The notes beneath the pieces were generated by a model, which did no database searches, was not told where the DNA came from, and saw only the letters and a program-made list of their open reading frames with translations. From Flavobacteriales bacterium (lineage in GTDB: Bacteria > Bacteroidota > Bacteroidia > Flavobacteriales_D > UBA2798), in contig JAIBBF010000026.1 in NCBI GenBank assembly GCA_019694795.1, positions 1 to 37,064 of the forward strand: 37,064 nt of DNA, given 5' to 3'. Below, in pieces: positions 1,237 to 10,112 of the stretch (position 1 is the first letter of the stretch; each line of letters opens with the position of its first letter). Position numbers and translations under genes: made by a program.

Positions 1237-4200
1237 TTACCATATTACAAAATCGAGAATTAAATTATCGGAACGGGTGGTAGGTTTTTGTTTTCCGTTG
1301 CTTAATTGAATCACCTTTTCATAGGTGTATTTCCTCAATTCCGAAACGCTCATTTTTTTATCATAATTTAAATCCGCTTTAAAATCACTCGAAGCACTCA
1401 ATAGGCAATAGGTAAATAATCCATTTTTCCATTCATTACTTTCCATCGAAAACTCGGCTCCTCCCGATGAAGAAATAATTACAGCGCCCGTTTCATTTTT
1501 AACATCAGCAAATAGAACCTGCATCATTTCAAAGGTATTGGATAATCCAAATACTTCTTTCTGCCTCACCCCTGCTCCAACTGATCTGAATTTTACGTCG
1601 TTGCTGATTTCAACTTCTGCCTTGGTCTCTTTTTCTACTTCATCTTTATCCAATTCACCACTGTGACAGGTATCCATAATCAACAATTTGCGCTGCGATG
1701 GAATCCCTGAAAATAATTGTTCGATTTCCGAATAGGAAACACCCGTTCCCGAAGGATTATCGAAATTCATATCGGATGTACCGAAATAATAATCGAATTT
1801 ATCATCTAAAACACCGTGTCCGGCCATAAAAACAATGACCAAATCTTCGGGTCCTGCCTGAGAAATATATTCTTTTATTCCCAAAACAGATGTACGGGTG
1901 ACCTCCTTATCGAGTAATATTTTAGAGTGGACTTTCACATAATTTTCAGATTGCACTCCAATTTTTGCCGCTACATCTTTTGCATCTTTGGCTGCATATT
2001 TTAAATCGAAACGATCGTCGTTGTAGTCGGATACGCCAATACAAACGATAAACAATTCTCGTTTCACCTCCGATAACTCACACACCACGGAAAATTCTTC
2101 AATTAAGGACTCCGCTCCTTTTTCGTTCATGCAGGAAATGCTGATTTGGTTGGCACCCGAAATCAACCGGATTTCAGTCTCCATATCTATACTTCCACTG
2201 GAGGATTTGCTTAAATCATAACCGGTGGAACCATACATGGGCACACCATTTACCTGAACATGCAAGCGATCCAGTTTGTAGCGTTGATCGCGCATTTTAA
2301 CCTTAACTTTAAGAAGGGGTTCTTTAACAACTAAAGGTATAGTTGATTGATCAAGCGAAATTTCCGGCGCATGAAAATCTGCCGCAAAATTTTCTTCATT
2401 GTAATTCAGCCGTTTTAACCTTTTCTCATATATATAACGAAATGCATTCGCCAAATTGGGAGGAGTTTTTCCTATACGGGAAGCAATGATGTCGGGCCTG
2501 TTCAAGCGCAAATCAAATTGCTCAAATGGATAAATTTTATCGTCCACCCTAAAGCTGACCGCCTGCAATGCTTCTTTGGATGCTGTGTAATAATGATCGG
2601 GAGTTACTATAATGTGATCGCTTACATTGGCGCAAATCAGTGATGCCACTTCGGTGCATTTATTAATATCCCAAAGTTTTACCATTCCGTCATCGGAGCA
2701 GGAAAAAATGAAATTTCCATCCTTCTCCACAATTACTTTATTGATCTGACCGGTTGGATTTTCAAATTTACAAATGGCTGTTCCGCTTTTTACGTCCCAT
2801 ATCCGAATCGAATTATCAATGGGCGATACCACATTATTCCCCGCACCACTCACCAGGTATTTTCCGTCGGAAGAAAAGTTGAGTGTGGTCACAATGTTTT
2901 CATGTCCTTTCCATTGCTTGATTAAACTATGTTTATCGGCATCCCAAATACCAATGGTTTTATCCCATGAAGCCGTAGCTAGAATTTTTCCGTCGGGACT
3001 ATACTCCACATCATTCACCAGGACTTCATGTCCCACCATTTGCGCAATTTCTTTTCCGGATTTCAAATCCCAAATACGGACGGTATTATCCAGTCCACAT
3101 GTAGCAATTTTGCTTCCATCAGGATGGAAACTGCTCGCATAAATTCCACCGGCGTGTCCGGTTAAACGCGCCACCATTTTTCCGTTGCGTATATCCCATA
3201 CTTTTAATATTCCCAAAAAGCCGCCACCCGCTACATAATTTCCATCTTTAGAAAAACTCAAATTCTGAATCAATTCCATTTCCGTATCAAGTCGGTGAAT
3301 CACTTCACCTGTATTGGGGTTATACACTCTCAGATCAATCTGATTACCCATACAAACCAATTTCTCTCCATCGGGAGAAAATTCTACCGGAAAAAAACCG
3401 TCAATTTTTCGTTCAATGCGCAAGGCAGAAATATTCCAGAGTTTAATGGAAATATCATCTGCAGCAGTAGCCAAAAATTTTCCCTTCTGATCATAAGCCA
3501 TACTTAAAATCCGGTTCCCGCGGGCTTTAAATAGTTTTAGCTCATTTCCTGTTTTGGCATCTACATAGTGGACCTGTTTCCATTCCGGATAAGCAAGAAT
3601 GTCCTCAGTGGGGTGACTCGCCAATGAGGTAATTCCCATGACTGTTTTACCAATGGATTTTAATTTTTTTCCGGATTTAAAATCCCAGATCACCAAATCG
3701 CGGTTATGATCCACAGAAAACATGCGGTCATCTTTGCGCGAGAAACTAATATCCACCATTCTTATTTTATGTTCTTTCAATACATGCAGCACATTCCATT
3801 TCTCCAACGAAAAAACGCGAATATGATTATCGTCGAATCCTGCTGCAAGGTATTTACCGGTTCTGTCAATCACCAATGGGGTGGCACAATACATGTATTC
3901 TTTAAACAAAGGAAAACTTCTCAGTGTTTTTCCGCTGTTAAGATCAAACTCCAATAAATTCCCTAAATGATCGAGAATATATGCTTTGGTGCCGGATAAA
4001 TCCACACAAAATCGTGTAGGTGAAATTTCTAATGTGTAGTCCTTTTCAATTTTACCTGTAAACGGATCTGTTATCACCAGGTGATTGCTGTTGGAGGAAT
4101 AAAGTAATTTTTTCCCTCCCATGCAGTACTCAAAATTGCTGTAAGTAGCCTCTACATCGAGGAGTGAAGAATACAATTGTCCGTTTACGGGATTCCAGGT

Positions 4201-4500
4201 TCTTAGCTGACCATTGTAATTGAGTCCGCTCAAACATTTTCCATCGGGAGAAAAAGCCACTTTTACAATGCGACCATCGTTTCCGGACAAAGTCCTCATT
4301 TCACGAGCCGTGCGTACGTCCCAAATTTTGATGTTTTTGTCGTTTCCACCTGTAACCAAAAACTGTCCATTCGGTGAAAAACTGATGCAGTTAATCTGAT
4401 CGGTATGTCCGGCAGTAACCACCACTTCAGGTTTTTGGGCAATTCCCTGCAAAGAAATCAACAGGAAAAACAGCGATTGCAAAATTGAATTTTTCATCAT
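1237..4500 (-). CDS. exported WD40-repeat protein with C-terminal caspase (peptidase C14) domain
   Basis: A large multidomain protein of about 1087 residues. After a hydrophobic signal-like N-terminus ending near GIAQ, residues about 25-660 hold roughly a dozen or more WD40 blades (repeats ending IKIWDV, VRIWDL, VKLWDI), enough for two seven-bladed propellers. A linker with a possible Ig-like part follows. The last 240 or so residues are a caspase-hemoglobinase fold: a YAAKDAKDV helix, the catalytic His in FMAGHGVLDD (codon 1816-1818, about residue 895) and the catalytic Cys in MDTCHSGE (codon 1666-1668, about residue 945). I chose the ATG at 4500 because it begins a normal signal peptide. 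A start at 4527 would add nine residues before it; the Met at 4497 is equally possible. It is convergent with the GH1 gene and divergent from ccmB, so it looks like a single-gene unit. Substrate and trigger are unknown. Confidence 0.9.
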   Translation of the reverse strand: MMKNSILQSLFFLLISLQGIAQKPEVVVTAGHTDQINCISFSPNGQFLVTGGNDKNIKIWDVRTAREMRTLSGNDGRIVKVAFSPDGKCLSGLNYNGQLRTWNPVNGQLYSSLLDVEATYSNFEYCMGGKKLLYSSNSNHLVITDPFTGKIEKDYTLEISPTRFCVDLSGTKAYILDHLGNLLEFDLNSGKTLRSFPLFKEYMYCATPLVIDRTGKYLAAGFDDNHIRVFSLEKWNVLHVLKEHKIRMVDISFSRKDDRMFSVDHNRDLVIWDFKSGKKLKSIGKTVMGITSLASHPTEDILAYPEWKQVHYVDAKTGNELKLFKARGNRILSMAYDQKGKFLATAADDISIKLWNISALRIERKIDGFFPVEFSPDGEKLVCMGNQIDLRVYNPNTGEVIHRLDTEMELIQNLSFSKDGNYVAGGGFLGILKVWDIRNGKMVARLTGHAGGIYASSFHPDGSKIATCGLDNTVRIWDLKSGKEIAQMVGHEVLVNDVEYSPDGKILATASWDKTIGIWDADKHSLIKQWKGHENIVTTLNFSSDGKYLVSGAGNNVVSPIDNSIRIWDVKSGTAICKFENPTGQINKVIVEKDGNFIFSCSDDGMVKLWDINKCTEVASLICANVSDHIIVTPDHYYTASKEALQAVSFRVDDKIYPFEQFDLRLNRPDIIASRIGKTPPNLANAFRYIYEKRLKRLNYNEENFAADFHAPEISLDQSTIPLVVKEPLLKVKVKMRDQRYKLDRLHVQVNGVPMYGSTGYDLSKSSSGSIDMETEIRLISGANQISISCMNEKGAESLIEEFSVVCELSEVKRELFIVCIGVSDYNDDRFDLKYAAKDAKDVAAKIGVQSENYVKVHSKILLDKEVTRTSVLGIKEYISQAGPEDLVIVFMAGHGVLDDKFDYYFGTSDMNFDNPSGTGVSYSEIEQLFSGIPSQRKLLIMDTCHSGELDKDEVEKETKAEVEISNDVKFRSVGAGVRQKEVFGLSNTFEMMQVLFADVKNETGAVIISSSGGAEFSMESNEWKNGLFTYCLLSASSDFKADLNYDKKMSVSELRKYTYEKVIQLSNGKQKPTTRSDNLILDFVIW

Positions 4501-4543
4501 GGTTAAAAATAGTGATTTCCATCTCACGGGAATCTTTTCTTGC

Positions 4544-4555: not shown

Positions 4556-5224
4556 ATGTCAGCAAAAGAGTTGTCGGTACTGCTCAAAAAGGAAATTGCG
4601 TTGGAATTGCGGAATAAAGTCGCCATTTCCGGTATTTTGCTCTATGTGATCAGTACCGTTTTTGTCTGTTACTTATCCTTTCGGAGACTGGATGATCCCC
4701 TGGTATGGAATACGCTTTTCTGGGTTATATTACTTTTTTCGGCCGTTAACACCATTTCGAAAAGTTTCCATACCGAAACCAGAAACCGGCTATTATACCT
4801 TTATACCCTATCATCACCGGCAGCGGTGATACTGAGTAAAATGCTTTATAATATTTTATTGATGGGCCTGACTTCATTGGTCACCCTCCTGGTCTACTCC
4901 ACACTTTTAGGCTCGGTTCCTCTCGAAGGCTCCAATGTTGGGATGTATATTGTAGCCCTCTTATTGGGATGTTCAGGGTTTTCGGGTATTTTCACGATGA
5001 TTGCCGCTATTTCTGCCCGCACCGGAAATAACCTGGGCATTATGGCCATTTTAGGTTTTCCCCTAATTCTTCCTTTGCTGGTAACGCTTATTGAGCTGTC
5101 CGGCATCGCCCTGAGGGGATTAACCTGGGAATATGGCTTTACGGCCATAAGTATTTTGGCGGGAATTAATGTGCTTGTTGTTGCACTCTCTTATTTGTTA
5201 TTTCCTTACCTTTGGCGCGAATAA
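4556..5224 (+). CDS. ccmB: heme exporter protein CcmB
   Basis: Membrane subunit of the CcmAB ABC transporter of cytochrome c maturation System I, in the cytoplasmic membrane. The 222 residues match the family length. A polar N-terminal helix (LLKKEIALELRNK) is followed by about six hydrophobic segments. The stretch beginning FSAVNTISKSFHTE fits the CcmB 'F....l...F..E' region after the second membrane helix. It is the first gene of the ccm operon. The ATPase partner CcmA is not next to it, so it must be encoded elsewhere if the transporter is complete. ccmC starts 17 nt downstream. Confidence 0.9.
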   Translation: MSAKELSVLLKKEIALELRNKVAISGILLYVISTVFVCYLSFRRLDDPLVWNTLFWVILLFSAVNTISKSFHTETRNRLLYLYTLSSPAAVILSKMLYNILLMGLTSLVTLLVYSTLLGSVPLEGSNVGMYIVALLLGCSGFSGIFTMIAAISARTGNNLGIMAILGFPLILPLLVTLIELSGIALRGLTWEYGFTAISILAGINVLVVALSYLLFPYLWRE

Positions 5225-5241
5225 TTTATTTGGAATCGGGA

Positions 5242-6273
5242 ATGAAAAACTGGTGGAAATTGGCTTCTGTGTTATTGTTGATGTATGTCATCGTCATGAG
5301 CCTGTTAACTCCTCTTGGTCCTGGAATTTCTTCGGTATCGCAAGAGAAATTGCATATGGGAAAAAACGATTCCATTTCAATTTACGGGTATAACACCGAT
5401 TTTACGGTAAGCTCGAAGGGACTTGAACAACCGGTTGTCTGGTTGGAAATCGGAGCATTCAATCTTCAGGCTGATACGATTCGGGTCATCAGCAAAAATG
5501 AAATCAGTGCAGATTTTTCTATACCCTATAATCTTCCTTCCAAATCTCAAACATTACATGTTCAGTATGCACAGGGACATTATGTGCTCCCCAATGCATT
5601 CCGTTGCGAAGAAGCGGGTAAGGATAATATTGAGCACGACGATTGTGAAGTAAAAAATCCGCAATACCTCAATAATGGAATGGTATTTCCCAATCGTGAA
5701 ATTTTAGGAGAGACCATTCGCAATTTAATGTTTCATGTACCCATGTGGTTCACCATGATGTTGCTGATGACGATTTCGGTAATTAATAGCATCCGTTATC
5801 TGTCCGGTTTTAATCCCCGTTACGATCTCATTGCTAAAGAAGCAGTAAAAGCCGGATTATTATTCGGGATTTTAGGTCTTGCAACCGGTTCTTTATGGGC
5901 CAGATTTACCTGGGGACACTGGTGGGTGAGCGATACCAAATTAAACGGTGCAGCCATAACAACCTTGATCTACATGGCTTATCTCATTTTAAGAGGTTCA
6001 GTGGGTGAAGAACAAAATCAGGCACGTGTATCGGCGGTGTACAACATTTTTGCATTCATGATTCTGGTCGTAATGCTCATGATTTTACCCCGAATTACCG
6101 ACTCCCTCCACCCGGGCAACGGCGGTAATCCTGCTTTTAGTCAGTACGACCTCGACAGCAAACTACGGATGGTATTTTATCCCGCCGTGTTGGGATGGAT
6201 TGGTATTGGATATTGGATATTTCAAATCCGGAAACGCATTGCTGTTCTCGGTGAAAAAACGCAAGAACTATGA
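5242..6273 (+). CDS. ccmC: cytochrome c maturation heme protein CcmC (CcsA family), extended form
   Basis: Handles heme at the periplasmic face of the membrane and loads it onto CcmE. The tryptophan-rich WWD-type motif is at residues 219-231 (WARFTWGHWWVSD). The flanking heme-ligand histidines are present as MFHVPMWF and SLHPGN. At 343 residues it is about 100 longer than typical CcmC: a soluble segment of about 140 residues (25-160) sits between the first membrane helix and the conserved core. The ATG at 5242 (MKNWWK) was chosen; an in-frame ATG at 5212 would overlap ccmB. Its stop overlaps the next start by ATGA. Confidence 0.9.
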   Translation: MKNWWKLASVLLLMYVIVMSLLTPLGPGISSVSQEKLHMGKNDSISIYGYNTDFTVSSKGLEQPVVWLEIGAFNLQADTIRVISKNEISADFSIPYNLPSKSQTLHVQYAQGHYVLPNAFRCEEAGKDNIEHDDCEVKNPQYLNNGMVFPNREILGETIRNLMFHVPMWFTMMLLMTISVINSIRYLSGFNPRYDLIAKEAVKAGLLFGILGLATGSLWARFTWGHWWVSDTKLNGAAITTLIYMAYLILRGSVGEEQNQARVSAVYNIFAFMILVVMLMILPRITDSLHPGNGGNPAFSQYDLDSKLRMVFYPAVLGWIGIGYWIFQIRKRIAVLGEKTQEL

Positions 6274-6470
6274 AAACATTATTAGCCGTTCTCATGTTGT
6301 TATTATCGAATCTTGCCATGGCTGCAGGTGCAGATACTTCAATGCATGAACAAGGAAAAATAAAAGTGGTAATTGGAGTAGTTGCCATCATTTTTATTGG
6401 CATCGTCGTTTACCTGTTTATGCTCGACCGCAAGATTTCGAAAATTGAAAAAGATATAAACGAAAAGTAA
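6270..6470 (+). CDS. ccmD: small CcmD-like membrane protein
   Basis: A 66-residue protein with an N-terminal hydrophobic stretch ending AMAAGA (signal peptide or first helix), one clear membrane helix (VVIGVVAIIFIGIVVYLFM), and a charged tail (LDRKISKIEKDINEK). CcmD in other bacteria is a small membrane protein that helps release CcmE from the CcmABC complex. The call rests on size, topology and position between ccmC and ccmE, since CcmD sequences are poorly conserved. It overlaps ccmC by 4 nt and ends 1 nt before ccmE. Confidence 0.7.
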   Translation: MKTLLAVLMLLLSNLAMAAGADTSMHEQGKIKVVIGVVAIIFIGIVVYLFMLDRKISKIEKDINEK

Positions 6471-6471
6471 G

Positions 6472-6843
6472 ATGAAAAAGACACACATCATCGGACTCAT
6501 CGTCATTGCCATTGCTATCGGAGTTATCATCACCTCGCTGAGTGGCGCAAGTACCTATGCCAACTTTACGGAAGCATTTGGTAATCCCGGAAAAAAATAC
6601 ACCGTGGTTGGCGAATTAGATCATGAACAGGAAATTACTTCCGAACCCTTGAAATGTACATTTTACATTAAGGACAAAGAAAATGTTGTAAAAAAAGTAG
6701 TTTACAACCAACCAAAACCAAAGGACTTTGAACGTTCGGAAAGTGTGGTTTTAACAGGCAGCGTGGAAGGTGATGTGTTTTATGCTTCTGAGATATCATT
6801 AAAATGTCCTTCGAAGTACAACGATTTGAATAAAAAACAGTGA
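6472..6843 (+). CDS. ccmE: heme chaperone CcmE, CxxxY variant
   Basis: Periplasmic heme chaperone, membrane-anchored by an N-terminal helix (residues about 5-25), with an OB-fold beta-barrel after it (YTVVGELDHEQEI, VVLTGSVEGDVFYASEI). In the classical protein the covalent heme ligand is a His in an HxxxY motif near the C-terminus. Here that position reads KCPSKY, so Cys112-x3-Tyr116. This is the CxxxY type known from variant System I in archaea and some Desulfovibrio. The 123-residue length is a little short for the family, with a short tail after the motif. Its stop overlaps the GTG start of ccmF. Confidence 0.9.
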   Translation: MKKTHIIGLIVIAIAIGVIITSLSGASTYANFTEAFGNPGKKYTVVGELDHEQEITSEPLKCTFYIKDKENVVKKVVYNQPKPKDFERSESVVLTGSVEGDVFYASEISLKCPSKYNDLNKKQ

Positions 6844-9704
6844 GTCAATATTCGGGTGAACACTTAATTCCCGGTGTGCTGGGAAATGCTTTTGTTGCAT
6901 TAACATTTGCAGCTGCTGCTTTATCGGTTTTTGCATATGCTATGGCATTTTTCCAAAAAGGAGATAGCTCTTTGCATTGGAAAAAATTAGGCCGGAAATC
7001 ATTTTTCATTTCTTCCATTGCTTCCTTCATTTTTATCGGTATTATGTTTTATCTGCTTACCATGCAGTATTTCGAATACCATTACGTGTGGGAGCAAATC
7101 AACAGTAAAATGTCGTTTAAATACATCCTGGTTGCATTCTGGGGTGGACAATCCGGTAGTTTTATGCTCTGGATTTTCTGGCATGCGGTAATCGGTTTGT
7201 TTTTATTAAAAAAGGAACGTCACTGGGAAACAGAAGTGATGGGCATTTTTGCTCTGGTAATGATGTTTCTTTCTTCCATGTTACTGGGCATTTATATTGG
7301 CGATTATCGTTTAGGATCAAATCCATTCAGATTACAGCGTGATGTAGTAGACGGATTCGGTACTATTTGGAGTTTAATTCCAGATTACCTGCAGCTCGAT
7401 CCCCGATTTGAAAACGGGAAAGGATTAAATCCACTGTTACAGAATTACTGGATGATTATTCATCCACCAACTTTATTCTTAGGATTTGCATTAACATTAG
7501 TCCCATTTGCATATGCTGCTGCCGGTTTATTAAGAAAATCGTATCAGGACTGGATTAAGCCGGCATTACCCTGGACATTCGTCGGCATTCTCGTTTTAGG
7601 AGTAGGAATATTAATGGGTGGAGCATGGGCCTATGAATCGCTCAGCTTTGGTGGCTTTTGGGCCTGGGATCCGGTAGAAAACGCATCACTCGTGCCCTGG
7701 TTAACCTTGGTAGGAGCCGGTCACCTTATGCTTGTAAATAAAAATCATCAGCGTTCGCTTTATTCTGCATTTTTCTTTTCACTCATTTCCTTCATCCTCA
7801 TTCTCTACTCTACGTTTTTAACCCGAAGCGGGGTGTTGGGAGATACATCTGTTCACTCATTCACAGGTGATGGAATGTTGGGACAATTGCTGGCATACCT
7901 CGTATTTTTCATTTGGTTTTCATTCATGCTGTTGCTGGTCGACAAAAAAGCAAGAATTCGATTTACACTGATCAGTATTGTATTAACCATAACCGGATTT
8001 ATGGTTGACCTCAATGCAATACTCACGCAAAGCGGCGATTTTATTTTAACCTGGAGAGGCTTAATTTTATTAATTGCGTTTACGTTCACTACCGTTTTCC
8101 TTATCAATAATTACCTGCTTCATTTCCCCAGAGAGAAAAAAGAAGAAGAATTGTGGTCGAGAGAATTCTGGATGTTTATCGGATCGCTGGTTTTAATATT
8201 GTCGGGATTACAGATCACCTTTTCTACTTCCATTCCGGTTATCAATTTATTGTTCGACACCAAAATGCAATTGGTAGAACAGGCAGCGCGCAATGAAGAA
8301 TTTAACCGCTGGCAAACTCCTTTTGCTATTATCATTGCTATTTTGGTAGCATTCACTCAATTTTTAAAATACAAGAACACCGACTTTACCGAATTCATAA
8401 AGAAAATTGCTGTATCATTAGGAATATCTCTGGTATTAACCTTCGTGTTAGGGTTTATTTTTCAATTTAGTCATTACCGCTATCTGATTTTATTACTGGC
8501 ATCACTCTTTACCGTAATTGCCAATTTCGATTACTGGATTCGCTTTTTAAAAGGAAAACTCAATCATGCCGGTCCCTCCATTGCTCACATTGGTTTTGGA
8601 ATTTTACTCCTGGGCGCTTTGATTTCGCAGAATAAACAACAAGTCATTTCCGAAACCACATTTGGATATAATCTTTCCATGCTTGGAAAAGAAATGAGTA
8701 ACAACAGCGATGTTCAGATTTTCAGAGGAGACACCACCGAAATGAAAGAATATTTCGTGAGCTATTCCGATAAAGTTCTGGATGGACATTTTCTCCGTTT
8801 CAACATTGATTATTTCGGTAAGGAAGCGGCCCAATATAAAATTGGCGACCGCATGAAATTTGAAGACAATGTTTATACATGTAAAACCGAACACACCTCG
8901 CAAAATAATTTTCAGGCAGAATTAAAAAACTGGGAAATGATTTCCGATGCCACTGTGGATGATTATTTCAAAGCTAAACCCTGGTCGGCATTTCAACCTT
9001 CGGAAAAACTCTATACACTGCAACCATTTGTGCAATTGAACGACATGAGCAATGTGGCAGAACCCGGTACAAAACATTTCTTCGATCACGATGTGTTTAC
9101 ACATATAAAATACGCCGATTTAAATCCGGGTAATCAAAGCGCAGAAATGCCTCCTTACGAATTAAAAGGTAAAGAAGGAGATACGATCGGAAATCCGGGA
9201 TTTATTGTCCGCATTTTATCCATAGAAGGTATTAAGCAAAAAGATAATGCCAGTTTCGGTCTCGACAGCAGCGATCTTGGTGCTGTGGTGCATTTAATGA
9301 TTAACGATATCTGGGATGTCAACCTCAAATACGGAATTCCTGTAGATCCGATTTTTGTTGTAAAAAACAATATGGAATTTACATCAAAACCCGTTTTTGT
9401 TTCTCAGATCAATACCACCTTTAACGTAAAAAACATTGCACCAAAAAAATCAGAGGAAGCACATGTTCACGAGCCGGGCGACACAACACATGTACATGAA
9501 GCAGAACCAGTGAACAGCGACAGCACGAAAGTGAAAAACGGATTTATGATGGGTGAATCTGAAATTACGATTGAAGTCACCACCCCCGAATTTATCGTGA
9601 TGCACGCTATTCGCTTTCCATGGATTATGATTCTTTGGCTGGGATGTATTATTATGGCTTTAGGAACAGGAATGGCCGTTTATCACCGCGTGAAAAGGGC
9701 CTGA
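6840..9704 (+). CDS. ccmF: cytochrome c heme lyase subunit CcmF, long form
   Basis: Integral membrane protein that transfers heme to apocytochrome c. The WWD-type motif is WAWDPVENAS at residues 274-283. Other CcmF hallmarks are FWGGQSGS near residue 100 and NYWMIIHPPTLFLGF near residues 200-215. With 954 residues it is much longer than typical CcmF of about 650. The extra length is a large soluble domain after the last core helix (about 600-920), followed by one final helix. That domain contains a short His-rich stretch, HVHEPGDTTHVHE, at residues 875-887. The start is GTG (6840), overlapping the ccmE stop. Last gene of the ccm operon; no ccmG, ccmH or ccmI follows. Confidence 0.93.
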   Translation: MSQYSGEHLIPGVLGNAFVALTFAAAALSVFAYAMAFFQKGDSSLHWKKLGRKSFFISSIASFIFIGIMFYLLTMQYFEYHYVWEQINSKMSFKYILVAFWGGQSGSFMLWIFWHAVIGLFLLKKERHWETEVMGIFALVMMFLSSMLLGIYIGDYRLGSNPFRLQRDVVDGFGTIWSLIPDYLQLDPRFENGKGLNPLLQNYWMIIHPPTLFLGFALTLVPFAYAAAGLLRKSYQDWIKPALPWTFVGILVLGVGILMGGAWAYESLSFGGFWAWDPVENASLVPWLTLVGAGHLMLVNKNHQRSLYSAFFFSLISFILILYSTFLTRSGVLGDTSVHSFTGDGMLGQLLAYLVFFIWFSFMLLLVDKKARIRFTLISIVLTITGFMVDLNAILTQSGDFILTWRGLILLIAFTFTTVFLINNYLLHFPREKKEEELWSREFWMFIGSLVLILSGLQITFSTSIPVINLLFDTKMQLVEQAARNEEFNRWQTPFAIIIAILVAFTQFLKYKNTDFTEFIKKIAVSLGISLVLTFVLGFIFQFSHYRYLILLLASLFTVIANFDYWIRFLKGKLNHAGPSIAHIGFGILLLGALISQNKQQVISETTFGYNLSMLGKEMSNNSDVQIFRGDTTEMKEYFVSYSDKVLDGHFLRFNIDYFGKEAAQYKIGDRMKFEDNVYTCKTEHTSQNNFQAELKNWEMISDATVDDYFKAKPWSAFQPSEKLYTLQPFVQLNDMSNVAEPGTKHFFDHDVFTHIKYADLNPGNQSAEMPPYELKGKEGDTIGNPGFIVRILSIEGIKQKDNASFGLDSSDLGAVVHLMINDIWDVNLKYGIPVDPIFVVKNNMEFTSKPVFVSQINTTFNVKNIAPKKSEEAHVHEPGDTTHVHEAEPVNSDSTKVKNGFMMGESEITIEVTTPEFIVMHAIRFPWIMILWLGCIIMALGTGMAVYHRVKRA

Positions 9705-10049
9705 TCACCACCAGCTAAAATATTCGAAGCCAATATAGATTCCATCTTCACGTTCTTCGAGGGGATAAACCTCCACATAAAGGCCTGCACCTCTTCCGTT
9801 TTTTAAATCGAATCCGTAGCGGTGCCAGGGACAAACCACTTTCCCATCTTCAACACATCCGCCCGCAGAAAAAGATTTTCCCTGGTGGGGACATTTATCT
9901 CTCACAGCAAAAAATTCCGTTCCATTTCTGGCAATGCAAATATTCGTGCTGTTCAGGTAATAATGCTTCAGACCCGAATCAGGGATCTGATCCATCAATA
10001 CCGATTTGGAATTGACCAGTTTATACCAACGGATTTTTGTTTTAAACAT
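9705..10049 (-). CDS. Rieske-type [2Fe-2S] ferredoxin
   Basis: A 114-residue soluble protein with the Rieske cluster motifs CPH (Cys53, His55) and CPWH (Cys73, His76), separated by 17 residues as in Rieske ferredoxins of dioxygenase or nitrite-reductase small-subunit type. No signal peptide or membrane anchor is present, so it is probably a cytoplasmic electron carrier. The ATG at 10049 was chosen over a GTG one codon upstream. It is convergent with ccmF: the two stop codons share the palindrome TGATCA. The partner enzyme is not visible. It is divergent from the acyl-CoA dehydrogenase gene with 63 nt between starts. Confidence 0.88.
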   Translation of the reverse strand: MFKTKIRWYKLVNSKSVLMDQIPDSGLKHYYLNSTNICIARNGTEFFAVRDKCPHQGKSFSAGGCVEDGKVVCPWHRYGFDLKNGRGAGLYVEVYPLEEREDGIYIGFEYFSWW

Positions 10050-10112
10050 CACTCTAAAAATACTTCCTTCAGTCGATTTTCCTAGTATATTTAAGCCTCA
10101 AATTAAAAACAG

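Follow-up and report, generated by a model that had tools for sequence, protein, structure and literature searches.

Cytochrome c maturation (Ccm) systems of the System I* type differ from classical System I by a haem chaperone, CcmE, that carries a cysteine in its haem-attachment motif. Such Cys-type CcmE, mostly with the motif CPSKY, has been reported from archaea, Desulfovibrio and other delta-proteobacteria, Chloroflexi and Firmicutes (PMC3601427; this and the other PMC sources are cited from the part of their text available to us). About a third of the bacteria with Cys-type CcmE keep CcmH (PMC3601427), so that the absence of CcmH is not diagnostic of System I*. For an archaeal system, C120 of CcmE was found to be needed for haem binding and CcmABCEF to be sufficient (PMC9084895), while how the thioether that links haem to the cysteine of CcmE is formed and cleaved is described as an open question (PMC3601427). 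Bacteroidota are not named as holders of System I* in the available text of PMC3601427 and PMC3884852 or in the other literature searched, and may be covered in Allen 2006 and Goddard 2010. Here, we describe a ccmBCDEF operon within a 37,064-nucleotide stretch (the window; contig JAIBBF010000026.1) of the genome of a Flavobacteriales bacterium, a member of that phylum.

The maturation system of the genome

Open reading frames (ORFs) together with Pfam and NCBIfam matches identified five ccm genes on the + strand at positions 4556-9704 of the window, in the order ccmB-ccmC-ccmD-ccmE-ccmF. The genes are tightly joined, with 4 bp overlaps at the ccmC/ccmD and ccmE/ccmF junctions and a 1 bp gap between ccmD and ccmE. 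None of ccmA, ccmG, ccmH and ccmI was found within the operon, in agreement with an earlier interpretation made from the letters of this DNA (the sequence-only reading). The genes by which System I* is recognised (those for CcmB, CcmC, CcmE and CcmF, plus CcmD in bacteria) are all present, CcmE is of the Cys type, and CcmH is absent, as is typical. The locus very probably supplies all but CcmA of a CcmABCDEF System I*, the only cytochrome c maturation apparatus detected in the genome, and we regard it as an ordinary System I* in which CcmC has a lineage-specific architecture and ccmA is probably unlinked.

Codons 112-116 of ccmE read TGT CCT TCG AAG TAC and encode CPSKY, which bears out the Cys112-PSK-Tyr116 motif named in the sequence-only reading. 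CcmE was found in 193 of 296 sampled genomes of the phylum. The ccmE gene was read in 68 other genomes (the 30 best-scoring loci and 38 picked for family spread), and CPSKY was present in all 68, as well as in all 21 CcmE from 23 named loci fetched together with CcmC (L153 and L161 yielded no CcmE). Because the cysteine is conserved across every CcmE read, a sequencing error at Cys112 is ruled out. CxxxY CcmE is the normal type in this phylum and not the sign of a special operon; the motif does mark a known variant of System I, as had been proposed, but it is the rule here and not an oddity. A search of PDB sequences with CcmE returned no matches. Near ccmE, three loci hold a second, shorter CcmE-like ORF without CxxxY (L013:441-797, L024:1081-1452 and L101:9665-10012).

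The source assembly (124 contigs, 99.9% complete) encodes a single CcmE and gave no match to CcmH (PF03918) at E<=1, with a model that does score over its cut-off elsewhere (in 4 of the 14 controls). The loss of CcmH expected from the sequence-only reading is thus seen in this genome and nearly throughout the phylum, where 7 of the 296 genomes gave a CcmH match, each of them weak and 2 scoring over cut-off, although it does not by itself identify the system. None of the seven matches was accepted as an ordinary CcmH: that at L107 resembles a histidine kinase by eye, and the other six are zinc-ribbon, transmembrane (TM), Cys-rich proteins (two of the six were run against Pfam). The latter, the central ORFs of L102, L103, L104, L105, L106 and L108, comprise ~254-323 residues with N-terminal zinc ribbons, a TM part and two Cys-rich CcmH-like repeats; the two tested matched PF03918 at E 1e-7 and 3e-9. 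These proteins are possibly degenerate CcmH relatives in genomes with Cys-type CcmE.

The CcmG/DsbE model TIGR00385 gave ten thioredoxin-like matches in the window's genome, all below cut-off. No ResB was found over cut-off (best match E 0.13), so that System II (CcsBA/ResBC) is not indicated, and eight c-type cytochromes were matched, seven of them over cut-off. Given a single CcmE, no CcmH match, no ResB over cut-off, and cytochromes c that can serve as clients, System I is the one maturation system detected in the genome. A second, classical Ccm cluster or a System II in the genome was ruled out on the same grounds; a ccmGH cluster accompanied by a second, HxxxY-type CcmE, which would have spoken against the variant system, was looked for genome-wide and not found. 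Weighing against this conclusion, the assembly is a 124-contig draft, and a CcmH on a lost contig is not strictly excluded.

Compared with the described systems, the locus shares with Desulfovibrio System I* a Cys-type, mostly CPSKY, CcmE, no CcmH and, going by the TIGR00385 cut-off here, no recognised CcmG (PMC3601427); unlike there, no ccmA is part of the ccmBCDEF operon and CcmC has an IPT/TIG-like insert. The CcmABCEF system of Methanosarcina acetivorans likewise has a CXXXY CcmE and no CcmH or CcmI, but it works without CcmD and with CcmF as two proteins (PMC9084895), whereas CcmD is present here and CcmF is one long protein. In common with System I of E. coli (CcmABCDEFGH; 7f02, 8ce1) are the core fold of CcmC, its haem-ligand histidines and the CcmB, CcmE and CcmF families. 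In contrast to E. coli, His130 of CcmE is replaced by Cys and Trp125 of the CcmC WxWD motif by Ser, CcmC has an extra domain, and CcmH and CcmG were not found.

The domain inserted in CcmC

The most unusual feature of the locus is a domain of ~100 residues inserted in CcmC after TM1 and before TM2, just ahead of the haem-binding H165. Of 29 loci from other lineages in which CcmC is an ORF of its own, 26 encode a CcmC of 219-274 residues without the insert. Two of the three longer ones (L088, L090) were judged to be ORF-start effects, and the third has an unrelated extension (L101:10507-11520, a 338-residue CcmC with a different N-terminal extension that aligns poorly to the window's insert). 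Within the order, CcmC was matched in 109 of 199 genomes, comprising 80 full-length matches (open frames of at least 342 residues), two partial and 27 weak ones. All 80 full-length proteins keep the insert, and the named loci with an extended CcmC come mostly from metagenome-assembled genomes (MAGs) of Flavobacteriales. As far as the sampled sequences tell, the IPT/TIG-like insert is specific to this lineage (Flavobacteriales) and absent from the CcmC of the others. The weak matches are ORFs of 530-1108 residues, and the three tested were all ResB-CcsA fusions (System II). In sister families within the order, such a fusion of ~1070 residues (L203:1974-5183, L204:4166-7357 and L205:1834-5088) takes the place of Ccm, indicating that the two types of maturation system substitute for one another inside a single order.

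AlphaFold was used to model the insert alone, which gave eight strands and a per-residue confidence score (pLDDT) of 81, reaching ~90 in the first 100 residues. The model matched IPT domains of Met and plexin A1 best (Met, 5lsp_A: Z 10.3, root-mean-square deviation (rmsd) 2.1, 85 residues aligned; plexin A1: Z 9.8), and the Bacteroides surface proteins 3hrp, 7k44 and 3tc9 were among the next matches. In a model of full-length CcmC (pLDDT 81), residues 25-125 also matched IPT domains, and the Z scores with those of Met and plexin A1 span 9.4-10.3 over the two models. Foldseek returned nothing at E<=0.001 with the insert model, a search of PDB sequences with the insert profile gave no matches, and PF01833 (TIG) was not matched over cut-off (1 of 14 insert members at E 0.048, the window's own member not at all). 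The insert is accordingly predicted to have an IPT/TIG immunoglobulin-like fold, resembling the domains of Met, plexin and Bacteroides surface proteins in modelled structure but without a Pfam match over cut-off. The literature searched held no description of a CcmC with a TIG or immunoglobulin-like domain.

The core of the full-length CcmC model superposed on E. coli CcmC (7f02_C) with Z 20.6 over 210 aligned residues (rmsd 3.0), and H165, W224, D231 and H290 are invariant in 21 aligned CcmC rows, the first, second and fourth corresponding to E. coli H60, W119 and H184 as counted along the alignment. The second Trp of WxWD is Ser230 (residues 229-231 are encoded by window positions 5926-5934); it is replaced in most aligned CcmC of the class and is kept as Trp in 3 of 22 aligned CcmC. 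A tie between this loss and Cys-type CcmE was rejected, as L089, L092 and L101, from outer lineages, keep the Trp yet carry CPSKY.

By analogy with the studied systems, haem would be delivered by CcmABCD to CcmC at its periplasmic site (H165/H290 and the W-rich loop), CcmE would bind it covalently via Cys112, and ATP hydrolysis by CcmA would release holo-CcmE. CcmF, in the absence of CcmH, would then pass the haem to apocytochromes with CXXCH, the reduced state of which thioredoxin-like proteins would maintain. For E. coli, CcmE is placed over the interface of CcmB and CcmC in the complex, and an AlphaFold model there has the H130 of CcmE stacked on W119 (PMC10457321). The insert comes ahead of H165 within one and the same loop and must therefore lie near the site at which haem is handed over to CcmE. 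Tentatively, and as the part of our interpretation of which we are least sure, the domain may cover the periplasmic face of CcmB/CcmC, where it would help to keep the head of CcmE in place or to orient it while haem is transferred.

It is also quite possible, at somewhat less than an even chance, that the insert takes no part in haem transfer and is either a tolerated, drifting decoration or serves another role in the envelope, such as contact with peptidoglycan or envelope proteins. Similar folds occur as modules of the Bacteroides surface proteins named above, other lineages of the phylum lack the insert, and the insert is poorly conserved, only L2, N28, P72 and P127 being invariant columns. 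This low conservation also disfavors a precise catalytic function of the domain. On the other hand, the retention of the insert in every full-length CcmC of the order and its place just ahead of a haem-ligand histidine count against this alternative. A conserved redox pair among the cysteines of the insert was considered and dropped, because their positions vary and L158, L151 and L156 have few or none. System I* is the phylum's normal system, and in one of its lineages CcmC carries, close to where haem is handed over, an additional domain that could be excised.

The C-terminal part of CcmF and the missing ATPase

The histidines H208, H295, H339 and H583, which we take to be the four functional histidines of CcmF, are kept in 43 of 43 aligned CcmF, and an alignment with Thermus thermophilus CcmF (6zmq, E 1.1e-31) supports the first part of this assignment. 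The window's CcmF continues for 371 residues after H583, and 41 of 42 relatives for 248-406; the exception (L152, 95 residues) is cut by the contig end. T. thermophilus CcmF has 660 residues in total, ~150 of them after the counterpart of H583 as placed by the last, non-significant piece of the alignment. It is unlikely that this long periplasmic C-terminal part supplies the function of CcmH, as the compensating feature of this System I* branch: its length in 41 of 42 relatives compared with the short T. thermophilus protein would suit such a role, but CcmF has no Pfam CcmH match, the T. thermophilus alignment of this part is non-significant, and the comparison covered the CcmF of relatives and of T. 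thermophilus. Returning to the insert of CcmC, we consider it rather doubtful that the IPT/TIG-like domain would be a docking and release platform special to this lineage for Cys-type CcmE and that, with an enlarged CcmF, it would let a six-protein CcmABCDEF work without CcmG, CcmH and CcmI.

The studied System I* keeps CcmA. The sequence-only reading, which took the missing ccmA as a further fit to the variant, was therefore mistaken on this point, and an unlinked candidate adjoining lpxA was found elsewhere in the genome. A search of the genome with TIGR01189 (ccmA) gave 39 ATP-binding cassette (ABC) matches, none over cut-off. The candidate is a stand-alone 210-residue ABC ATPase (contig C4:30720-31349), and by eye its neighbors look like lpxA and an lpxC-fabZ fusion. 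At L096, a locus from another class, ccmB follows an ABC gene at a distance of 5 bp, and the best match of the ABC gene product among the ABC proteins of the window's genome was the 210-residue, lpxA-linked ATPase (117.5 bits; next 102.7).

A profile of nine CcmA-like proteins (A1) was searched in the 199 genomes of the order; it contains both the ATPase of the window's genome and the L096 protein, which makes those two matches circular. At E<=1e-37, A1 matched 75 of the 82 genomes that have this CcmC and 9 of the 117 that lack it (Fisher p 8e-36), and at 1e-50 the counts were 52 of 82 and 3 of 117 (Fisher p 1e-22), relatedness being ignored in both tests. Across the phylum, none of the matches in 40 genomes taken as CcmE-negative was better than 2.9e-37; several CcmE-positive genomes likewise had weak ATPase matches (e.g., G006, G096, G196, G239), and G022 had none. 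In 23 of the 120 phylum genomes for which both positions were given, the best match precedes ccmE by 1.9-2.4 kb in the same orientation (one of the 23, G172, belongs to the profile). An lpxA-like gene is the neighbor at 35 of 40 CcmA loci, two of the 40 being from the window's own genome; another 4 have a ccmB there, and the last has neither.

Because the ATPase co-occurs with Ccm and its homologues stand directly before ccmB in other classes, we regard it as the candidate CcmA; these sequence comparisons make CcmA its most likely identity, with the gene located next to lpxA in the class to which the window belongs. Several observations do not favor this assignment: the candidate is below the TIGR01189 cut-off and only the tenth of the genome's 39 ABC matches, NCBIfam scores ABC-F, DrrA, lantibiotic and GldA models above ccmA for it, and 7 of 82 genomes with CcmC have no match at 1e-37 whereas 9 of 117 are matched without CcmC, in part owing to incomplete MAGs. 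That no dedicated CcmA exists, so that CcmB would work with a different ABC ATPase or with none at all and the ATPase next to lpxA would serve lipid A or envelope biogenesis, is very unlikely: the frequent lpxA-like neighbor and the low ccmA score would agree with it, but most genomes of the order that lack this CcmC have no match to the ATPase or a distant one, and outside the window's class its homologues directly precede ccmB. A ccmA of this kind would escape both family cut-offs and gene linkage, so that claims of a Ccm system without ATPase in this phylum need a check at the lpxA locus.

Gene coordinates and neighboring genes

The start of ccmC is most likely the ATG at 5242, within a listed ORF that begins with TTG at 5212. 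All features of the operon are given in Table 1.

Table 1 Features of the ccmBCDEF operon (positions in the window)
Feature	Position	Strand	Description	Evidence
ccmB	4556..5224	+	222 aa; CcmAB ABC transporter membrane subunit	PF03379 CcmB 38.3 bits
ccmC	5242..6273	+	343 aa	Cytochrom_C_asm and ccmC models
IPT/TIG-like insert in ccmC (predicted)	5311..5616	+	~residues 24-125, TM1-TM2 interval	
ccmD, CcmD_alt type	6270..6470	+	66 aa	PF20077 49.8 bits; TIGR04391 30.9 bits (cut-off 24)
ccmE, haem chaperone, CxxxY type	6472..6843	+	123 aa	PF03100 44.4 bits (cut-off 24.6)
CcmE Cys112-Pro-Ser-Lys-Tyr116 codons	6805..6819	+	predicted haem-attachment motif	read from sequence
ccmF, cytochrome c synthetase subunit	6840..9704	+	954 aa, GTG start	PF01578 (Cytochrom_C_asm) and PF16327 (CcmF_C)

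Both neighbors of the operon are on the - strand. Positions 1237-4527 of the window encode a 1096-residue protein that combines WD40 repeats with a caspase-like domain (NF047832 71 bits, below the cut-off of 140), and a Rieske-type ferredoxin gene (9705-10052; PF00355 45 bits) lies convergent to ccmF.

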